From: Ruegeria sp. HKCCD4315
GTDB taxonomy: Bacteria; Pseudomonadota; Alphaproteobacteria; Rhodobacterales; Rhodobacteraceae
DNA length: 64,000 nt
Direction: 5' to 3'
NCBI RefSeq assembly: GCF_013112245.1
Contig: NZ_WVRN01000001.1
Location: 1,306,501 to 1,370,500 of the forward strand
The position numbers and the translations under genes are program-made. The notes below the pieces were generated by a model that was not told the DNA's origin, did not search any database, and saw only the letters and a list, made by a program, of their open reading frames with translations. Below, piece by piece: positions 2,556 to 63,483 of the stretch. Every line of letters starts with the position of its first letter. Position 1 is the first letter of the stretch.

Positions 2556-3296
2556 GTGGCGACAGCGGTTTTGTTGAGCAAAGGGCGCTATCGCGCCCGA
2601 TTGGCGCAGTCGGCTGAAGACATCAGTGCCGCACAGGCATTGCGCACACAGGCTTTTGGCACTCAGCAGCTGGACACTGATGCGTTCGACAGGCGGTGTT
2701 GCCACGTTTTGGTCGAGGACATGCGCACTGACGCGCGGCTTGTCTGTTGTTTTCGTATGATGAGTATGGATCACGGTCGAGAAGTCGGGCGCAGCTATTC
2801 TGCGCAGTTCTACGACCTAAGCTCGCTTGAGGGTTTCAACGGCAGAATGGTCGAGATGGGGCGGTTCTGTGTCCACCCCGATTGCAGTGATCCCGATATT
2901 CTGCGCGTCGCGTGGGGTGCGATGACTGCTTATGTGGATCAGAACGGCGTTGAGATGTTGTTTGGGTGTTCGTCCTTTGCCGGTACCGAGACCGAACAGT
3001 ACCTGGACGCGTTTGCGATGCTCAAACACCGTCATCTGGCCCCAAAACGATGGCTGCCGCGGGTGAAGGCACCGGATGTTTTTCGCTTTGCCACGCGTTT
3101 GCGGCGCAGGCCGGATCTGAAGCAGGCGATGTTACGAATGCCGCCTTTGTTGCGGACCTATCTGATGATGGGTGGCTGGGTCAGTGATCACGCGGTTGTG
3201 GATCGCGACATGAACACGCTGCACGTTTTTACCGGGTTGGAAATCCGGGCGATTCCCCCAGCGCGGAAACGTCTGCTGCGGGCGGTGGCCCGGTAG
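2556..3296 (+). CDS. olsB: L-ornithine N-alpha-acyltransferase (OlsB-like)
   Basis: OlsB transfers a 3-hydroxyacyl group from acyl-ACP to ornithine, the first step of ornithine lipid synthesis, a phosphorus-free membrane lipid common in roseobacters. The 246-residue product shows the acetyltransferase_5 fold pattern: LRTQAF, then VEMGRFCVHPD near the middle, GCSSFAGT and a C-terminal lysine/arginine-rich part ending FTGLEIRAIPPARK. I place the start at GTG 2556 because GGAGG (2543-2547) sits eight bases before it; the frame is open 81 bases further upstream without a better site. The partner O-acyltransferase olsA is not adjacent. Confidence 0.85.
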   Translation: MATAVLLSKGRYRARLAQSAEDISAAQALRTQAFGTQQLDTDAFDRRCCHVLVEDMRTDARLVCCFRMMSMDHGREVGRSYSAQFYDLSSLEGFNGRMVEMGRFCVHPDCSDPDILRVAWGAMTAYVDQNGVEMLFGCSSFAGTETEQYLDAFAMLKHRHLAPKRWLPRVKAPDVFRFATRLRRRPDLKQAMLRMPPLLRTYLMMGGWVSDHAVVDRDMNTLHVFTGLEIRAIPPARKRLLRAVAR

Positions 3297-3321
3297 TTTG
3301 AGTATTTTCGAAAAGGTGAAG
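3297..3321 (+). repeat. Degenerate copy of the 3'-end hairpin/T-run element
   Basis: Directly after the olsB stop lies TTTGAGTATTTTCG followed by AAAAGGTGAAG. It matches the single-stranded half of the element seen intact at 59638-59687 (GAGTATTTTTGAAAAGATGAAG), but the hairpin half is absent. It looks like a remnant. Confidence 0.45.
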
Positions 3322-10581: not shown

Positions 10582-11043
10582 ATGAGCAGATTGAGTAGAA
10601 ATCTGGTGACGATCTATCGGACGGAACGTCTGATCGCCCGGCGCCGTCTGGCCGTGGTTCAACAGCAGACTATTTTGATGGGGATCGCGGGCATTGCTGC
10701 CCTGTCAGCGTTGGTGCTTGTGAACGTTGCTTTGTTCTTTGCTCTGCAAAACTCCATGTCTCCTGCCTCGGCCGCTGCATTACTGGCACTTGGCAATCTT
10801 GCGTTCGCCTGTCTGCTGGTCTTGTTCGCGCGACGCAGCAACGCAGAGGACGAAGTCGCCCCGGCGGTTGAAGTTCGCGACATGGCAATTGCAGATATCG
10901 AGGATGAGTTGGAAGAGATGGCGTCCGAAGCGCGCGAAGTTGTGCAGGCCGTCAAAAGCATCGGGGCGAATCCATTGGGTTCGATGGCGACAGTGTTGGT
11001 GCCTTTAATCAGCATGTTGATCAAAAGTCGAAGTGGCGATTAG
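10582..11043 (+). CDS. Phage-holin-superfamily / YqjE-like membrane protein
   Basis: The 153-residue protein has two adjacent transmembrane segments (about 31-58 and 64-86: MGIAGIAALSALVLVNVALFF, then AALLALGNLAFACLLVLF) followed by an acidic cytoplasmic helix rich in E and D and a short hydrophobic end. This matches the YqjE / Holin-X-type membrane proteins of unknown function. AGGAGGGAC precedes the start. It is co-directional with and close behind the YqjD-like gene. The name 'holin' is a fold label; there is no phage context. Confidence 0.6.
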   Translation: MSRLSRNLVTIYRTERLIARRRLAVVQQQTILMGIAGIAALSALVLVNVALFFALQNSMSPASAAALLALGNLAFACLLVLFARRSNAEDEVAPAVEVRDMAIADIEDELEEMASEAREVVQAVKSIGANPLGSMATVLVPLISMLIKSRSGD

Positions 11044-11102
11044 GGGGCGCTGCCCCCGCCGCGCAAGCGCGCCTCCCCCGAGATATTTTGGGCCAGATGA
11101 AG
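11043..11102. repeat. 3'-end hairpin/T-run element, copy B
   Basis: Two hairpins, GGGGGC-GCT-GCCCCC (11043-11057) and CGCGC-AA-GCGCG (11060-11071), precede CTCCCCCGAGATATTTTGGG and CCAGATGAAG. It fills the gap between convergent genes and ends eight bases before the desaturase stop. It may terminate the plus-strand transcript. Copy C at 39228-39286 has the same layout. Confidence 0.8.
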
Positions 11103-11110
11103 AACGGATC

Positions 11111-29595: not shown

Positions 29596-30438
29596 TCAGG
29601 TCTTTTGAACTTCGCGGGCCAGTGCGCAGAACGCTTCCAGCGGAACTTGTTCCGCGCGTTCCGTGGGCTGAATCCCTGCCGCCAGCAAACGGTCTTCGAT
29701 ATCGGGGGCCACGCCCTTCAATGAAGCCCGCAGCATTTTGCGACGTTGATTGAAGGCCGCAGCCACAACACGGGACAGGATGGCAGCATCGGCAGGATAG
29801 CGGGGCTCGGGCAGGGCGGTCAGGTGAACCACGGCGCTGGACACCTTGGGCGGTGGGGTGAACGCGCCTGGGGGCAGCGACATGGCGATGCGCGCCTCAG
29901 CCCGCCATTGCGCAAGGATGGCGAGACGGCCGTACGCCTTGCTGCCGGGTTGAGCGACGATACGTTCAGCAACTTCGCGTTGGAACATCAGCGTCAGGCT
30001 TTGCCAGAAAGGTGGCCATTCGGGTGGCGTCAGCCAACGGACCAGCAACTCGGTTCCCACGTTATAGGGCAGGTTGGCCGCAACGCGGATCGGCGGCGTC
30101 AGGTGTTCCAGCGGGTTGATTTCCAGCGCATCACCGTTGATGACCTGAAGCCGTCCGGGATACGCCGCAGCGATGTCGTTCAGGGCAGCGATACAGCGCG
30201 TGTCTTTTTCCAGTGCGACGACCTTGCGCGCGCCTTCAGACAAAAGCCCGCGTGTCAAACCGCCGGGGCCAGGGCCGATTTCCAGCACATCACATTCAGT
30301 CAGGTCCCCGGCCTGACGGGCGATCTTGGCGGTCAGGTTAAGGTCCAGCAGGAAGTTCTGACCCAATGACTTGCGCGCCGAGAGCTGATGGGTTGCGATG
30401 ACCTCGCGCAGCGGGGGAAGATTGTCGATAGCGCTCAT
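29596..30438 (-). CDS. rsmA: 16S rRNA dimethyladenosine transferase RsmA (KsgA)
   Basis: RsmA dimethylates two adjacent adenosines near the 3' end of 16S rRNA as a late 30S maturation check. The 280-residue product shows SLGQNFLLD, the SAM motif [19 protein letters not shown], the catalytic NLPYNV and [12 protein letters not shown] start at ATG 30438; seven more codons upstream are possible. It is the last gene of the block lptG-lptD-surA-pdxA-rsmA. Confidence 0.95.
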
Positions 30439-30487
30439 GATCCGATTACCGTGATGCAAAGGAGCGCATGTGCGCCAGAGATTTTTT

Positions 30488-30520
30488 GCCTCCGGCGGAG
30501 GTATTTTCAGCCAGGTGAAG
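30488..30520. repeat. 3'-end hairpin/T-run element, copy D
   Basis: GCCTCCGGCGGAGG, TATTTTC, AGCCAGGTGAAG reads on the plus strand, ending two bases before the pdxA stop. Unlike the other copies it sits between two genes of the same strand (pdxA then rsmA). CCTCC/GGAGG can form a short hairpin. Confidence 0.8.
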
Positions 30521-30522
30521 GA

Positions 30523-31488
30523 TCAAGAGCTTTTTGCCATGCGTTGAGCGAGCTTCAGGGCCTCGATCAGGCTGGTGGGCGTGGCAATGCCTTTCCCGGC
30601 GATGTCCAGCGCTGTGCCGTGATCCGGCGACGTTCGGATAAAGGGCAGGCCCAGTGTCACATTCACGCCGCGGTCGAAATCCAAGGTTTTGATCGGTATC
30701 AGGGCCTGATCGTGATACATCGCGATCGCCGCATCATAGCGCGCGCGGGCCGCGGCGTGAAACAGCGTATCTGCCGGGTGGGGGCCAGTGAGCGTCGCGC
30801 CATCGAGGTTCAGTTCAGCGACAAGCGAGGCAATCCAATCGCCTTCCTCAGTTCCCATTTTGCCGCCTTCGCCCGCATGAGGGTTGAGGCCAGCGATGGC
30901 GATGCGCGGGTTGGCGATGCCGAACTGCTTGCGAAGGCCAGCAGCGGTAATCTCGATCGTATCGCGTAGGAGATCCGGGGTCAGGGCTTCTGGAACTTGT
31001 GACAACGGAATATGAATTGTAGCAGGCACAACACGCAGTTGATCGCTGGCCAACATCATCACGACCCGTTGCGTTCCAGAAAGGGCGGCAAGAAACTCGG
31101 TATGGCCGGGATAGCTGAATCCGGCCCCGTCTATCAGAGCTTTTTTGTGGATGGGCGCTGTGCAAAGCGCCGAGGCGTGTCCTGCTTTTACCAAGTCGAC
31201 ACCGGTTTCGATGGCATCGATCACAGAAGGTGCATTGGCGGGGTCGGGCTGGCCAGGCACATTGGGGACCAGGAAGTCCAGTTGTAGGACGGGCAACGCT
31301 TGATCGCAGACCGTCAGGGCCTGCGCGGGATCTTCGATTTCCGCGACCGGAGTCCCAGCAGGCAGGTGGCTGGCATCGCCGATATAGAAGAACGGGCAGG
31401 AGCCGCGTAGCTCGTCCCAAGCTTTGGCCGCTATTTCGGGACCGATCCCCGCCGGTTCACCACAGCTGAACGCGATTGGGCGGGTCAT
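30523..31488 (-). CDS. pdxA: 4-hydroxythreonine-4-phosphate dehydrogenase
   Basis: PdxA oxidises 4-phosphohydroxy-L-threonine in the deoxyxylulose-phosphate-dependent route to pyridoxal phosphate. The 321-residue protein has CGEPAGIGPEI at the start, the metal-binding TAPIHKKAL and YPGHTEFLA, GLNPHAGEGGKMGTEE, PADTLFH, YHDQALIPIKTL and FIRTSPDHGTALDIAGKG, as in functional members. Its start overlaps the surA stop by four bases. The order surA-pdxA-rsmA is conserved in many proteobacteria. Confidence 0.95.
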   Translation of the reverse strand: MTRPIAFSCGEPAGIGPEIAAKAWDELRGSCPFFYIGDASHLPAGTPVAEIEDPAQALTVCDQALPVLQLDFLVPNVPGQPDPANAPSVIDAIETGVDLVKAGHASALCTAPIHKKALIDGAGFSYPGHTEFLAALSGTQRVVMMLASDQLRVVPATIHIPLSQVPEALTPDLLRDTIEITAAGLRKQFGIANPRIAIAGLNPHAGEGGKMGTEEGDWIASLVAELNLDGATLTGPHPADTLFHAAARARYDAAIAMYHDQALIPIKTLDFDRGVNVTLGLPFIRTSPDHGTALDIAGKGIATPTSLIEALKLAQRMAKSS

Positions 31489-39227: not shown

Positions 39228-39286
39228 GGGGGCGCTGCCCCCGCCGCCTTCGGCGGCTCCCCCGAGGTATTTTTAGCCAGATGAAG
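39228..39286. repeat. 3'-end hairpin/T-run element, copy C
   Basis: Hairpins GGGGGC-GCT-GCCCCC (39228-39242) and GCCGCC-TTC-GGCGGC (39243-39257) are followed by TCCCCCGAGGTATTTTT and AGCCAGATGAAG. It starts five bases after the aldo/keto reductase stop and ends ten bases before the regulator stop. Layout is nearly the same as copy B. Confidence 0.88.
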
Positions 39287-39296
39287 TTGGATCCGG

Positions 39297-58453: not shown

Positions 58454-59629
58454 ATGAAAGCAGTATCCAAATCAGCTATGCGCCGCTGCGCGACCGGACT
58501 GGTCGCTGTCGTCGTTTTGGCCGGGTGTGAAGGGCCCTTGGACTATGATCTGCGTGGGCAGGTCGGTGGGTTCTCGACTGCCGATGCGGCGCAAGCTTCC
58601 ACCACATCGCGGCCCACACCGGACAGCCGGGGTGTGATCACTTATCCCAACTATCAGGTTGCCGTAGCCCGTCGGGGCGACACAGTGCGTGACGTTGCCG
58701 CGCGTGTTGGCCTGCCGGAAAGTGAGTTGTCGCGCTTCAACGGATTGCAGGCCACCGACAGTTTGCGAGAAGGCGAAGTGCTGGCCTTGCCGCGCTCGGT
58801 CGGTGCCGGTAGCGGGGTGGATATCGCTTCGGTGGCCGGAAGTGCGATCGATCAGGCCCCGGATACGGGTTCGGTTCAGACAACGACATTGGAACCAGCG
58901 AAACCCGCGCCAACCGCCGCCCCTGTGCCTTCGGGGCCGGAACCGGTCCGGCACAAGGTCAAACGGGGCGAGACGGCCTATACCATCTCGAGGCTCTATC
59001 AGGTGCCGGTCGACGCGCTTGCGGAGTGGAACGGGCTTGGGCCCGATTTTACCGTGCGCGAAGGTCAGTTTCTATTGATTCCGGTCAAGAACCAGCCTGC
59101 ACCACGGCAAAGCGCTGCGGCGGCTGCGGCACCTGTTGCGGCCACTGAAGTGACCGAGCCGGGGCAGGGATCGCCAACACCGACCCCGCCAAGCGCCACC
59201 CAGCCGCTGCCTGAAGAAAAAGTTGCACCCAAAGCTGAGGCACCGGATGTGACGGCCGAAGCCCCGACCAATACGCGCTCTTCGGCCCTTTCACTGCCAG
59301 TAAGCGGTACCATCATCCGTGGCTACAACAAGGGCAAGAATGAAGGCATCGACATAGCCGCAGCACCCGGTACGGCTGTAACAGCGGCCGAGGCAGGTAC
59401 GGTTGCGGCGATAACGGCGGATGCGGATCAGGTTCCGATCATCGTGGTTAAACACAAAAACGATCTGCTGACAGTTTATGCCAACGTAGACGACATTACC
59501 GTAAAGAAAGGTGACCGCGTGCGTCGTGGTCAAAAGCTGGCGCAGTTGCGGGGTGGAGACAACGCCTATGTACATTTTGAAGTGCGCAAAGGGTTCGAGT
59601 CTGTTGATCCAGAGCCCTACCTGAAGTGA
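58454..59629 (+). CDS. nlpD: NlpD-like lipoprotein with LysM and degenerate LytM domain
   Basis: A 391-residue lipoprotein: signal to the lipobox LAGC, two LysM domains (about 60-112, VAVARRGDTVRDVAARVGLPESELSRFNG, and 165-208, KVKRGETAYTISRLYQVPVDALAEWNG), a proline/acidic linker and an M23 (LytM) domain near 285-391. Its zinc ligands are changed: NEGIDIAAAPGTAV lacks the first His, and YANVDD replaces the usual YAH motif. As in E. coli NlpD/EnvC, this suggests an activator of amidases rather than a peptidase. ATG 58454 is chosen; a start 18 codons upstream lacks a lipoprotein pattern. It follows surE and pcm. Confidence 0.88.
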   Translation: MKAVSKSAMRRCATGLVAVVVLAGCEGPLDYDLRGQVGGFSTADAAQASTTSRPTPDSRGVITYPNYQVAVARRGDTVRDVAARVGLPESELSRFNGLQATDSLREGEVLALPRSVGAGSGVDIASVAGSAIDQAPDTGSVQTTTLEPAKPAPTAAPVPSGPEPVRHKVKRGETAYTISRLYQVPVDALAEWNGLGPDFTVREGQFLLIPVKNQPAPRQSAAAAAAPVAATEVTEPGQGSPTPTPPSATQPLPEEKVAPKAEAPDVTAEAPTNTRSSALSLPVSGTIIRGYNKGKNEGIDIAAAPGTAVTAAEAGTVAAITADADQVPIIVVKHKNDLLTVYANVDDITVKKGDRVRRGQKLAQLRGGDNAYVHFEVRKGFESVDPEPYLK

Positions 59630-59637
59630 GGATGAAT

Positions 59638-59687
59638 GGCCCGTTTCGGGCCATGCCTCCGGCGGGAGTATTTTTGAAAAGATGAAG
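59638..59687. repeat. 3'-end hairpin/T-run element, copy E
   Basis: GGCCCG-TTT-CGGGCC (59638-59652) is followed by ATGCCTCCGGCGGGAG, TATTTTT, GAAAAGATGAAG. It starts eight bases after the nlpD stop and ends four bases before the WYL-regulator stop. Copy F has the same GGCCC...GGGCCATGCCTCCGG order. Confidence 0.85.
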
Positions 59688-59691
59688 AAGG

Positions 59692-60363
59692 TCAGACGTT
59701 TGGGTCGTAGTCGCTCAGGCGTTTGCCGGGTTCGTCCGCAAAGAGTTCCGGCAACGGCGCGATAGTTTCGATCAGGTCGATACGGAAGACGCGGAAACCC
59801 TGACGAAGTTCGCACCAAGCGGTGAGGGTCCAGACGCGGCCCCAGTATTCCATGTGAAGCGGGCGGATGGTGCGTTCGGTCAGAACCCCGTCGATCCTTT
59901 GATATGACAAGCGAAGTTTCTGGCGCGATTTGATGGCTGCGCGGATCGGGGCCATATGTGCCAGCCCACGGGCGGCATCGGCAAAGGGGTAAACGGCGAA
60001 CTTCCATGCGTCGGCTTCGGCTATTACCTGCGTGGGCAAGACGGCATCGATTTTGTCAGCCAGAGAATTGGCAGCGGCTTTCAGGTCAGGATCGGCGGCC
60101 TCGGCCACGATAGCCATACCGAGGTTGAGCGCTTCAAGCTCGGCTGTAGTCAGGTTCAGCGGGGGCAGGGTGATCTGCTCGCGCACCATGTAGCCCACGC
60201 CGCGTTCGCCTTCGACCGGAACACCCGAAGCCACCAGCGTATCCATATCGCGATAGATGGTGCGGACCGATACCTCGAGCCGGTCCGCAATGTCCTGCGC
60301 ACGGTGCAGTTTGCCGTCGCGCAGGATCTGTATGATGTCGAAAAGACGATCCGTGCGGCGCAT
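59692..60363 (-). CDS. WYL-domain (YafY-type) transcriptional regulator
   Basis: A 223-residue regulator with an N-terminal HTH_11 domain (RRTDRLFDIIQILRDGKLHRAQDIADRLEVSVRTIYRDMDTL) and a WYL-type ligand domain (IKSRQKLRLSYQRIDG, RTIRPLHMEYWGRVWTLTAWCELRQGFRVFRIDLIE). It follows the monooxygenase-like gene by 21 bases on the same strand, so it is probably the second gene of that operon and controls its own promoter through the palindrome at 60737-60762. Confidence 0.88.
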   Translation of the reverse strand: MRRTDRLFDIIQILRDGKLHRAQDIADRLEVSVRTIYRDMDTLVASGVPVEGERGVGYMVREQITLPPLNLTTAELEALNLGMAIVAEAADPDLKAAANSLADKIDAVLPTQVIAEADAWKFAVYPFADAARGLAHMAPIRAAIKSRQKLRLSYQRIDGVLTERTIRPLHMEYWGRVWTLTAWCELRQGFRVFRIDLIETIAPLPELFADEPGKRLSDYDPNV

Positions 60364-60384
60364 ATTACGCCGTCCAGACCGCGC

Positions 60385-60690
60385 TTAGGCGGTCATGTTC
60401 CATAACACGTTCTCGTGGCGCATCTGAATGCTGTCAGGATTGATGGCTGCCATCAGACCGGCGCAGAAGTCCTGTTGTGGGAATTGCGCGGCGGCGTCTT
60501 TGGCCGCCTTCATGTCCGTCCAGACGACATAATCGGTCCAACGCCCGTCTTCGCCCTGGCTCAACTGGCGATGGGCGAAGCCCGGTGCGCTGCGGACAAA
60601 GGCTTCTGAGGCTTGGCTGAGTTTCACAAATTCTTCCGGTGTGGTGCCATTGGCAAGGGTGAAGGTGACGATTTCAGCAACATGGGTCAT
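60385..60690 (-). CDS. Antibiotic-biosynthesis-monooxygenase-like (ABM) small protein
   Basis: A 101-residue dimeric alpha+beta barrel type protein: HVAEIVTFTLANGTTPEEFVKLSQASEAFVRSAPGF, then GRWTDYVVWTDMKAAKDAAAQFPQ and PDSIQMRHENVLW. ABM-like proteins bind or oxidise small aromatics or haem-like ligands; catalysis is not shown here. It is the first gene of a two-gene operon with the WYL regulator and the target of the palindrome about 47 bases upstream. Confidence 0.72.
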   Translation of the reverse strand: MTHVAEIVTFTLANGTTPEEFVKLSQASEAFVRSAPGFAHRQLSQGEDGRWTDYVVWTDMKAAKDAAAQFPQQDFCAGLMAAINPDSIQMRHENVLWNMTA

Positions 60691-60736
60691 TTGGGTCTCC
60701 GTTGACCAGGTTTCGATACCGTCTTCGTAATGCTAC

Positions 60737-60762
60737 CCAACTGACATAAACCTGTCAGTTGG
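60737..60762. promoter_or_regulatory. Perfect 10-bp inverted repeat, likely WYL-regulator operator
   Basis: CCAACTGACA, six bases, TGTCAGTTGG is a perfect inverted repeat centred about 60 bases upstream of the monooxygenase-like start. A CTGACA/TGTCAG core is an arrangement I associate with YafY/WYL-type regulators. It lies in the 222-base gap to tatA, which shows nothing else clear. Confidence 0.65.
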
Positions 60763-60912
60763 AAAATGCGAGCCCTTAGATTCTGCGGGATCATATCAAT
60801 TTTTACCTTCAAACAGCACTTGTTCCCTTTTGAGGCAACGCATCCGGGCGTAAACACAGAGCCAGTTCATATTCCCGGCACGTAAGGGTGCCGATGAAAG
60901 AGGAGAAAAGAC

Positions 60913-61128
60913 ATGCTCAACAATATCGGCCTTCCCGGTCTTCTGCTGATCGCCGTTGTGGTTCTGGTTCTGTTTGGCCGCGGCAAGATCAGCTCGCTGA
61001 TGGGTGAAGTTGGCAAAGGTATCACCGCCTTCAAGAAGGGCGTGAAGGATGGCACGGAAGAGCTGGAACAAGATGCGTCCGAGATGGCCAAGGACGTCAC
61101 TCCTGAAACCGAGAAAGACAAGGCGTAA
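60913..61128 (+). CDS. tatA: Sec-independent translocase TatA
   Basis: TatA forms the pore for folded, twin-arginine-bearing proteins. The 71-residue protein has one N-terminal span ([16 protein letters not shown]), the hinge FGRGKI, an amphipathic helix ([18 protein letters not shown]) and an acidic tail. GAGGAGAA precedes the start. It begins the operon tatA-tatB-tatC. Confidence 0.95.
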
Positions 61129-61134
61129 GCGCAG

Positions 61135-61593
61135 ATGTTTGATCTGGGCTGGACCGAACTTCTGGTCATCGGCATCGTTGCCCTGATCGTTGTGGGGCCG
61201 AAGGACCTGCCGGTGTTGTTCCGCAATGTCGGGCGTTTTGTCGGCAAAGCCCGTGGCATGGCGCGCGAATTCAGCAGCGCCATGAACGAGGCTGCGGATC
61301 AGGCTGGCGTGAACGAGATCAAGAAAGGTCTCGACGCTGCCGCGAATCCTGTGGGTTCTGCCATGGACGGTGTCAAACAAGCCGCGCAGGATATGGCCAA
61401 AAGCATCGATCCTACCAAGTTCGATCCTGACAGCGAAACCGGCAAACTGGCGGCAGAACGGGCCGAGCAGGCCAAGAAAATTCAGGCCACCACAGCACGT
61501 GCCGCCGCCGAACGCAAAGCCAAGGAAGCTGCCGACGCATTGGCCAAGGCTGAAGAGGCCGAGGCTGCGCTGAACACTGAAAGCAAGACATGA
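61135..61593 (+). CDS. tatB: Sec-independent translocase TatB
   Basis: TatB, with TatC, forms the substrate receptor. The 152-residue product begins [26 protein letters not shown], the TatB hallmark (Glu 8 and Pro-Lys-Asp-Leu-Pro), then a long amphipathic helix ([28 protein letters not shown]) and an alanine/lysine-rich end. Its stop overlaps tatC start by four bases. Confidence 0.95.
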
Positions 61594-62471
61594 GCAAGAC
61601 CGACGAGATCGAAGATACCTCGGCCCCCCTGATCGAGCATCTGGCCGAGCTGCGCACGCGGTTGATACACTGCGTCGTGGCTTTTCTGGTCGGGATGATC
61701 ATCTGCTTTACCGTGGCCACGCCGCTTTTTAACTTTCTGACCAATCCCCTATGCGAGGTACTGACTGAGCGTGGACAGGATTGCGGCCTGATTTTCATCT
61801 CGCCACAGGAAGGTTTCTTTGTGGCCATCAAGGTCTCGTTGCTGGGCGGGTTCATTCTGGCGTTTCCCTATATCGGGATGCAGATGTGGCGCTTTGTGGC
61901 GCCGGGGCTGTATAAGTCGGAAAAGAACGCGTTTTTGCCCTTCATGCTGGCCTCGCCCTTCATGTTCCTTCTGGGCGCAAGCTTCGCGTTCTATGTCGTC
62001 ACGCCACTGGCCTATGATTTCTTCCTTGGGTTCCAGCAATTTGGTGCTGAAGGTGAAGCCGTAGCAGATGGTGCAACTGCTGCACCTCTGAGCGTGGTTT
62101 TCCAGGGCTCAGCACAGGAATACCTGAACCTGACGATCAAGTTCATCGTGGCTTTCGGGCTGTGCTTCCAACTGCCGGTTCTTTTGACCCTCATGGGCAA
62201 GGCGGGACTGGTCAGCGCCGAAGGCCTGGGTGCCGTGCGCAAATATGCAGTCGTAGGCATTCTGGTGCTGGCTGCTATCGTGACGCCCCCGGATGTAATC
62301 ACGCAGATCATCCTCTTTGTTGTGGTTTATGGCCTTTACGAAATTTCGATCTTCCTGGTCGCTCGGGTCGAACGCAAGCGCGAAGAACAACTGCGTGCCG
62401 ACGGCTATTACGACGATGAAGAGGCTGAAGCGGATGCCGATCATATGCAGGATTACGAAGAAAAATCGTGA
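61590..62471 (+). CDS. tatC: Sec-independent translocase TatC
   Basis: TatC is the six-span receptor of the Tat system. The 293-residue product begins with the conserved [12 protein letters not shown] (14-25), then [53 protein letters not shown] segment [17 protein letters not shown] and [20 protein letters not shown], all family marks. A charged C-terminal tail ends in [12 protein letters not shown]. An intrinsic terminator follows. Confidence 0.95.
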
Positions 62472-62490
62472 TCTATAGAAAATACTGAAC

Positions 62491-62520
62491 AAGGCGTGCC
62501 GATCTCTGGCGCGCCTTTTT
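62491..62520 (+). terminator. Rho-independent terminator after tatC
   Basis: AAGGCGTGCC and GGCGCGCCTT pair over ten positions (one G-T) around a GATCTCT loop, followed by TTT. It ends the tatABC transcript. Confidence 0.85.
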
Positions 62521-62584
62521 CGTTTCCGCCTCTTGTTGCGCCGGAAGGAACATGGTTTGAACACCAAAACGACCGGAGGCCCCT

Positions 62585-63427
62585 ATGGATGATCAAGCCC
62601 TGAACCGTATTGCTGATGCGCTGGACCGCATGGCACCGGCCCCATTGGCTGCCCCGGATTTTGACGAAGCCCCTGCATTTGTCTGGCATGTGGAACCCGA
62701 CCGGTTAGAGCCTGTGAACCAGGTCAACCGCGTCGATTTGGACTTGTTGGTCGGCATCAATCGGTCGCGCGACACCTTGCTTGATAACACGCGTCGGTTT
62801 GCCGCCGGATACAAGGCGAACAACGCGTTGTTGTGGGGCGCGCGGGGCATGGGGAAGTCCAGCCTTGTCAAGGCAGTGCACGGAACCCTGCAATCGGACC
62901 ATCCGGATTTGAAGCTGGTCGAATTGCAACGCGAGGATATGGCGTCGGTTGCACGCCTTCTGAACCATCTGCGCGCTGCGCCGCACCGGTTCATCCTGTT
63001 CTGCGACGATCTTTCGTTCAGCCATGATGACCAGCATTACAAATCGCTCAAGGCCGTTCTGGACGGTGGTATTGAAGGTCGCCCGGAAAATGTTGTTTTC
63101 TACGCCACCTCGAACCGTCGTCACCTGATGCCAAGGGACATGATCGAAAACGAACGCTCCAGCGCCATTAACCCATCCGAGGCGGTTGAGGAAAAGGTTT
63201 CGCTGTCCGACCGTTTTGGACTTTGGCTGGGCTTTCACCCCTGCGATCAGGACGAATATCTGGCCATGATTGACCGCTATTGCGCGGCCTATGGCGTATC
63301 GGTCGATGCAGGCACTCTGAGGGCCGAAGCCATTGAGTGGCAAGCCACGCGCGGCTCACGCTCAGGCCGCGTTGCCTGGCAATTCTTTGTCGATCTGGCC
63401 GGTCGCAACGGCGTTCACATCGCCTGA
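62585..63427 (+). CDS. DUF815 family AAA+ ATPase
   Basis: A 280-residue P-loop protein of the DUF815 family. It has Walker A GARGMGKS (85-92), Walker B FILFCDDLSF and an arginine-rich sensor region (FYATSNRRHLMPRDM, RSGRVAWQFFVDLA). AGGCCCCT is near the start ATG 62585. The family is common beside tat or ribosome-related genes and of unknown function, thought to be a nucleoprotein or chaperone-like ATPase. Confidence 0.88.
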   Translation: MDDQALNRIADALDRMAPAPLAAPDFDEAPAFVWHVEPDRLEPVNQVNRVDLDLLVGINRSRDTLLDNTRRFAAGYKANNALLWGARGMGKSSLVKAVHGTLQSDHPDLKLVELQREDMASVARLLNHLRAAPHRFILFCDDLSFSHDDQHYKSLKAVLDGGIEGRPENVVFYATSNRRHLMPRDMIENERSSAINPSEAVEEKVSLSDRFGLWLGFHPCDQDEYLAMIDRYCAAYGVSVDAGTLRAEAIEWQATRGSRSGRVAWQFFVDLAGRNGVHIA

Positions 63428-63433
63428 TCCCAG

Positions 63434-63483
63434 CTTCATCTGGCTAAAAATACCTCCGCCGGAGGCATGGCCCGCAAGGGCCA
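63434..63483. repeat. 3'-end hairpin/T-run element, copy F (reverse)
   Basis: On the minus strand: TGGCCC-TTGC-GGGCCA (63483-63468), TGCCTCCGGCGGAGG, TATTTTT, AGCCAGATGAAG. It begins six bases after the DUF815 stop, between convergent genes, and is copy E in opposite orientation. Confidence 0.88.

Follow-up and report, generated by a model that had tools for sequence, protein, structure and literature searches.

The accepted view attributes the ends of bacterial genes to hairpins with T-runs and to Rho, and neither of these requires a word peculiar to a lineage. In a 64,000-nucleotide stretch of the Ruegeria sp. HKCCD4315 genome (contig NZ_WVRN01000001.1, positions 1,306,501 to 1,370,500; hereafter, the window), a hairpin-plus-T-run element recurs a few bases from stop codons. 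The element appears to be a composite 3′-end signal of the Rhodobacteraceae, a mostly marine family in which it is present in dozens of copies per genome. Its first part would be a G+C-rich hairpin of no fixed sequence that is missing from some copies, and its second a two-part sequence of fixed spacing, about 22 to 27 bp long, which seems to consist of a few bases, TATTT, three variable bases, and an 8- to 11-base word whose last bases are GAAG in the forms searched. At an orthologous site, both parts are conserved; within the second part, the two halves change together, and the element lies at gene ends in either orientation. Our favored reading, which we hold tentatively, is a terminator-associated site read by sequence-specific factors and acting as a 3′-end terminator or insulator.

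A dispersed element at gene ends

The six copies that the initial annotation listed in the window were all found at their coordinates (Table 1), and its distances of 2 to 10 bases from a stop codon to CTTCA(T/C), the start of five of these copies when read in reverse, were confirmed against the open reading frames. The window holds nine matches to the 19-base core (up to three mismatches) against 1.14 expected, six of them the listed copies, and none of 100 shuffles reaches nine. A narrower form of the core with GGCCAGATGAAG has five matches against 0.01 expected. Rfam 15 gave no match above its gathering score in the window.

Scanned genome-wide, as had been suggested with the first description, the element proved to be family-wide and strongly enriched at gene ends. 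The pattern TATTT-N6-RGRTGAAG (TATTTNNNNNNRGRTGAAG), which fixes TATTT and positions 12 to 19 (RGRTGAAG) and leaves the six bases at positions 6 to 11 open, has 74 exact matches in the HKCCD4315 genome (39 forward and 35 reverse) against none for the reversed control. Contig C1 (3.64 Mb) carries 70 of these and C2 (0.90 Mb) four, while the remaining two contigs have none; such a small number outside C1 has P = 4e-5. Keying the copies by ∼100 surrounding bases left 73 that were distinct, and 70 were analyzed after three inside open reading frames had been dropped. Two copies on C2 (L063 and L064) probably have identical surroundings, i.e., they lie in a duplicated stretch.

Genes around the copies were called by codon usage, with the strand of TATTT taken as plus. 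The 70 noncoding copies divide into 26 between two plus-strand genes (>>), 24 between convergent genes (><), 18 between two minus-strand genes (<<), one between divergent genes (<>), and one unresolved. The near absence of divergent sites compared with convergent ones (P = 1.5e-6) ties the element to gene 3′ ends, and the two tandem orientations show no significant bias (P = 0.29). The caller misses RNA genes, and the context counts thus carry small errors; the copy in L045, counted as ><, has its core (2992 to 3010) ∼100 bases from the start of the RNase P RNA gene, which is encoded on the minus strand at 2501 to 2893, and is really <<.

Fifty of the 70 copies are in sense to the gene on the hairpin side, and in 39 of these 50 cases its stop codon lies 18 to 63 bases before TATTT. 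On the GAAG side, a stop codon is 0 to 14 bases away in 26 of the 42 >< or << contexts, and nine further stops are found at 64 to 88 bases, several of them where two cores face each other around GGATCC. Since the element nearly fills compact intergenic spaces, this may explain the stop distances of 2 to 10 bases. In many GCC copies (see below), the opposing gene takes its TGA stop from the GGATCA tail. GCC copies also occur in HKCCD4315 as tail-to-tail pairs centered on GGATCC, with a hairpin for either member (L019/L020, L036, L040, L010, L049, and L029); the second core is imperfect in some of them, and many single GCC copies end in GGATC like half a pair.

Species-specific words and coupled halves

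Two words account for nearly all copies in HKCCD4315: GCCAGATGAAG in 38 (GCC copies) and AAAAGATGAAG in 31 (AAAA copies), with one GAC copy completing the 70. The two forms that the initial annotation distinguished by hairpin type are better set apart by word. A third word, AACAGAAGAAG, has five copies in HKCCD4315 by our reading of the matches, compared to one match there for the reversed control. In L479, the copy is flanked by divergent genes, and G177 (L476) and G154 (L499) keep it at the corresponding position.

Among the bases left open by the pattern, positions 6 to 8 vary from copy to copy (entropy of 0.9 to 1.7 bits in the two HKCCD4315 dialects) and positions 9 to 11 are nearly fixed within each dialect (0 to 0.18 bits). 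Positions 9 to 11 differ between genomes, reading GCA in every listed match of G132 (71 by count), CCA in every listed match of G131 (55) and in 22 of 22 G039 copies, and ACA in 23 of 23 G124 copies, and the bases before TATTT change with them. AG precedes TATTT in all 31 AAAA copies compared to none of the 38 GCC copies, which all have GG or GA there. In the Ruegeria genome G173, CCG goes with AC(A/G)AGAAGAAG in the four copies listed, the same holds for two G175 copies, and one ACG copy of G168 has TCG before TATTT. Variable bases between two fixed, coupled halves resemble what a single sequence-specific binder would recognize, and the dialects resemble shifts in the specificity of such a binder. 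RNA pairing between the two halves (GG with CC) was considered and rejected, as it fits some words (GCC, CCA, and CCC) but not AAAA, ACA, or CAA.

The words are nearly absent from coding sequence. A scan of ∼496 kb for three words outside elements found one in coding sequence, by our estimate a chance occurrence, and one beside a decayed TATTT; two loose matches, in G174 and G157, are not elements and seem to fall within one and the same gene.

Conservation and switching in place

At the site of the 63434 copy, we compared 27 of 30 orthologous spaces in an alignment anchored on the hairpin and not on the core. Of the three left out, L103 and L121 have no element and L101 has one with a shorter hairpin that the anchor missed. 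TATTT is kept in 24 to 27 of the 27 rows, the dialect triple in 23 or 24, and AGATGAAG in 25 or 26, compared to 14 for position 8 and also 14 for the second base past the element; as a background, measured in a slightly different way, the adjoining gene has a mean identity to HKCCD4315 of 56% at the third codon positions of its final 90 bases. Hairpin and core are thus both highly conserved across the genus at this site.

Other sites fared variously. Site 59638 is less conserved, with 22 of 30 rows anchored, several of them decayed, and two spaces down to 11 bases. Among five close relatives, site 30488 is kept in four and absent in G157, site 39228 has the AAAA word in G157 and is damaged in G174, and site 11043 could be placed by both flanks in one. 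The 3297 copy, which had been called degenerate, is not so: it lacks a fused hairpin, yet its AAAA core is kept in four of the five relatives and the fifth, G173, has another dialect there, ACGAGAAGAAG.

On a tree of 29 genomes, GCC and AAAA were exchanged at least twice at site 63434 and at least four times at site 59638, where some of the rows labeled AAAA are decayed. Both halves switch together in place. Between the sister genomes G165 and G167, site 63434 shows nine differences only from −2 to +82, and these fall on three of the four bases before TATTT and on positions 6 to 11. Eleven BLAST-matched locus pairs with different words, whose flanks are 66 to 86% identical, were also aligned. 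In L491/L001 and L501/L011, the differences in the space are almost confined to the word positions and their vicinity; divergence is too great for a judgment in L477/L060, L472/L041, and L473/L037, and L478/L057 compared the wrong copy of the locus. Related words are only four or five bases apart, and for these a stepwise change under selection is possible. A single copied patch seems the better account of the nine-base switch between G165 and G167. What is remarkable about this element was overlooked by the initial annotation: its dialects, the coupling between its halves, its in-place switching, and its copies without a hairpin.

Distribution among genomes

The first pattern, that used for HKCCD4315, matches 86 of 149 genomes of the family, with a maximum of 125 copies in G110, and the control never exceeds one match per strand in a genome. 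Dropping the AGATGAAG requirement gives a second pattern, which also matches 86 of the 149 with no control match and finds many copies where the first found none (G088, 119; G016, 37; G148, 26; G129, 23). Further words among its listed matches, which do not include those of these four genomes, are ACCCAAAGAAG, AACAGAAGAAG, and CAACGAAGAAG. In a class-wide sample of 289 genomes, those outside the family have 0 to 4 matches, compared to 0 to 2 for the control, with no common word among the matches listed. As far as genome scans can tell, the element is specific to Rhodobacteraceae.

The share of AAAA copies differs widely between genomes, from 35 of 35 in G178, 27 of 29 in G164, 52 of 85 in G172, and 33 of 74 in HKCCD4315 to none in G171 (0 of 28), G151 (0 of 15), G165 (0 of 11), and G155 (0 of 6). 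G173, which is close to HKCCD4315, has 7 AAAA copies versus 33, together with 12 matches to TATTTN6AGAAGAAG, 11 of which read AC(A/G)AG. Among 31 Ruegeria genomes, G149 alone lacks an exact copy; the two of its sites that were examined hold a decayed AAAA copy and, at site 63434, an ordinary terminator-like hairpin.

Terminator, repeat, or binding site

In the reading that we favor, the second part would be a DNA site for a sequence-specific factor whose specificity differs by lineage, with one factor or paralogue per dialect, and beside the hairpin the element would stop or insulate transcription at gene ends. Transcripts coming from the hairpin side would be stopped by the hairpin and TATTT, while read-through and opposing transcripts would be stopped by the bound factor. 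Termination in the sense direction is plausible given the hairpin followed by TATTT and the preference for T at position 6, which would bear out one half of the earlier proposal of a bidirectional terminator; action in both directions is suggested by placement. In the copies inspected by eye, which is not a systematic test, no U-tract was seen after the hairpin in the reverse reading. A promoter reading, with TATTT as a −10 box, was judged unlikely by eye, as position 6 varies.

In several AAAA copies, nothing but TTTGAG or TGAG precedes TATTT and there is no fused hairpin, and other copies stand behind a complete T-run terminator (L162 and L179 in another genus, and L388 on a viral contig). 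Together these copies argue that the core is more than a U-tract.

A number of observations weigh against a factor-read site. The nearest predicted helix lies anywhere from 0 to 15 bases from TATTT, and the folds are only moderately more stable than those of shuffled sequences (median z of −1.3 to −1.5 in the main contexts). Eighteen of the 70 copies are antisense to both neighbors. TATTT and positions 12 to 19 were imposed by the search pattern, and only positions 9 to 11 count as fixed from the matches listed. The coupling is not one-to-one, as GGAG stands before several different words in other genera, and uniform words could come from descent and rare copying between sites. At site 63434, moreover, 23 of 27 rows have T at positions 6 and 7 and only position 8 varies, so that the T-run looks selected, and the first eleven bases of the hairpin are kept in 24 to 27 of the 27 rows, as well as the core. 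These last two results favor an ordinary terminator and led us to lower slightly our confidence in the factor-read site.

The alternative that survives best is a family of ordinary Rho-independent terminators, in which RNA polymerase, with no extra factor, would itself favor particular DNA immediately past the release point and the dialects would be copy lineages spread by rare short conversion; we consider it unlikely, if a serious contender. In many copies, the geometry resembles that of intrinsic terminators, with a G+C-rich hairpin and then TATTT(TT) at gene ends, and T appears to be preferred in sense, position 6 being T in 38 of 50 sense contexts versus 8 of 18 antisense contexts (P = 0.02; the difference at position 7 is not significant, P = 0.27). 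The equal conservation of hairpin, T-run, and word at site 63434 and the ordinary hairpin that replaces them in G149 point the same way. The element differs from intrinsic terminators by its species-specific word past the T-run, by variable bases inside the T-run in many copies, and by copies that are antisense, placed behind a complete terminator, or without a fused hairpin, among them the conserved 3297 copy. The words differ between species of one genus, whereas RNA polymerase is expected to change little between species.

The hairpins themselves are diverse, with 64 different predicted nearest stems among the 70 copies; all 70 folds contain a helix of at least 4 bp, which a 52-base fold nearly always yields. 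Compensatory pairing, which the initial annotation judged likely, was not seen: stems differ widely between copies, yet orthologous sites give one-sided G-U changes only. The comparison matched 27 of 30 and 20 of 30 stems at two orthologous sites with an expression that admitted hardly any other change, and is thus no real test of covariation.

A bolder extension of the factor-read site strikes us as doubtful. A family of sequence-specific DNA-binding factors would mark gene ends in the Rhodobacteraceae, each reading a two-part address; the factors would be replaced from one species to another, and the address would be rewritten to match at dozens of fixed positions in the chromosome, at least once as a single short copied patch of less than ∼25 bases. 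Apart from this extension, a word that is uniform within a dialect, different in sister species, and swapped in place implies either a gene-end factor coevolving with dozens of sites or a novel copying of very short DNA patches, and terminator prediction in the ecologically important Rhodobacteraceae would gain.

We think it improbable that the element is a nonautonomous mobile family like repetitive extragenic palindromes (REPs) or bacterial interspersed mosaic elements (BIMEs), moved by some enzyme and tolerated only at gene ends, with the paired copies as dimers of the kind called REPINs. The resemblance is considerable: both are dispersed and palindromic, lie at gene 3′ ends in both orientations, close to stops, and form subfamilies per genome and inverted pairs, here centered on GGATCC. 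The change of type in place can be counted in favor of mobility, and it also sets the element apart from known REPs. GGATCA tails supply TGA, much as the GTAG ends of REPs supply a TAG stop according to the part of PMC3733652 consulted. The palindrome foot of REPs bears a GTAG or CGTC tag, according to the title and the same part of that paper, and no such tag was found; the word of the element ends in GAAG, beyond TATTT, and what the copies have in common is a two-part word that lies unpaired, away from the hairpin. Whereas REPs of this type go with a REP-associated tyrosine transposase (RAYT), the Y1 transposase PF01797 is present in only 16 of the 149 family genomes (the HKCCD4315 copy is on contig C3) and absent from G110 (125 copies) and from G104, G070, and G132 (71 to 125 copies). 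Sites are old, shared, and strongly conserved between orthologous positions, and ∼70 kb of each of five relatives showed losses, decay, and type changes but no element at a new site, in a small sample scanned for GAAG-ended words only. The dispersed nonautonomous element that had been suggested at first is therefore not supported in its REP/RAYT form.

We give little credence to an RNA-level element of the 3′ untranslated region, a stabilizer or translation-termination signal whose transcript would read stop codon, CTTCATC, A-rich stretch, and hairpin. CTTCAT does start 0 to 14 bases past the stop in 26 of the 42 contexts where that side has a gene end, but the word is equally present in the 26 >> contexts, where there is none, and closeness to stops may only mirror compact intergenic spaces nearly filled by the element.

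Least likely of all, and very improbable, is an uptake signal that biased DNA uptake would maintain and that would be tolerated in terminators: DNA uptake sequences (DUS) and uptake signal sequences (USS) share with the element a fixed word that differs as dialects between species, the presence of several dialects in one genome, and a terminator association (for DUS, these last two and dialects are described in the parts of PMC3630211 and PMC13020248 consulted), but thousands of copies are reported for DUS compared to tens and at most 125 per genome for the element (first pattern), which is almost absent from coding sequence, usually sits behind a hairpin, has 70 of 74 copies on contig C1, and in one case switched in place with no other change over ∼85 bases, which does not resemble the import of a long fragment.

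The element thus resembles terminators, REP repeats, and uptake sequences and fails or leaves open the defining features of each; we place it among terminator-associated dispersed repeats, as a variant with a dialect-coded word. A literature search, which mostly did not extend to subscription journals, found no description of it, including in the parts consulted of PMC1590033, PMC3733652, PMC12306157, PMC13020248, and PMC3630211.

Viral contigs

With the first pattern, viral contigs gave 18 stretches, all of 25 to 58% G+C and none with a hairpin foot ending in GAGG or GGGA. The second pattern gave at least 120 stretches (80 loci were looked at), six of which, among those listed, have a G+C-rich upstream sequence. 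These six G+C-rich contigs (L368, L384, L388, L401, L412, and L420) carry element-like cores with the words CCA, GCA, and AAA. The cores look like real elements, and the contigs are perhaps proviruses.

Copies and neighboring genes in the window

Family matches confirm that the 30488 copy lies between pdxA and rsmA/ksgA, as first described, and it is antisense to both.

Table 1. Copies of the element and adjacent genes in the window, with further copies of the third word elsewhere in the genome
Feature	Position	Strand	Details
AAAA-word copy without fused hairpin	3297..3321	+	TTTGAG + TATTTTCGAAAAGGTGAAG; core 3303-3321; 6 bases separate TATTT from the stop of gene 2757-3296
GCC-word copy, convergent genes	11043..11110	+	Hairpins 11043-11083; core 11084-11102; GGATC tail 11106-11110; stop to CTTCA(T/C), 8 bases
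GCC-word copy (30488)	30487..30520	+	Hairpin 30487-30501; core 30502-30520; antisense inside pdxA-rsmA series; stop to CTTCA(T/C), 2 bases
GCC-word copy, convergent genes	39228..39294	+	Hairpins up to 39267; core 39268-39286; GGATCC 39289-39294; stop to CTTCA(T/C), 10 bases
AAAA-word copy, convergent genes (59638)	59636..59687	+	Hairpin ATGGCCC..GGGCCAT; CTCCGGCGGGAG; core 59669-59687; stop to CTTCA(T/C), 4 bases
GCC-word copy, convergent genes	63434..63483	-	Core 63434-63452; hairpins 63453-63483; stop to CTTCA(T/C), 6 bases
rsmA/ksgA, next in pdxA series	29596..30459	-	TIGR00755 above cutoff
pdxA	30523..31488	-	TIGR00557 and NF003699 above cutoff; stop codon 2 bases from 30488 copy
Peptidase M23/NlpD-like gene, ends before 59638 copy	58478..59629	+	Loose name; NCBIfam matches all below cutoff
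DUF815 AAA-ATPase gene	62585..63427	+	PF05673; stop 6 bases from 63434 copy
AACAGAAGAAG copies	C1:1427149, 1470379, 1699059, 2463604; C2:499539		L479, L488, L496

In the C-run hairpins, e.g., that at 39235 to 39267, the C-run of the first hairpin was seen by eye to recur just before the core. The length of this repeat seems tied to the hairpin (4, 5, or 6 C), and the G-run could pair with either copy.

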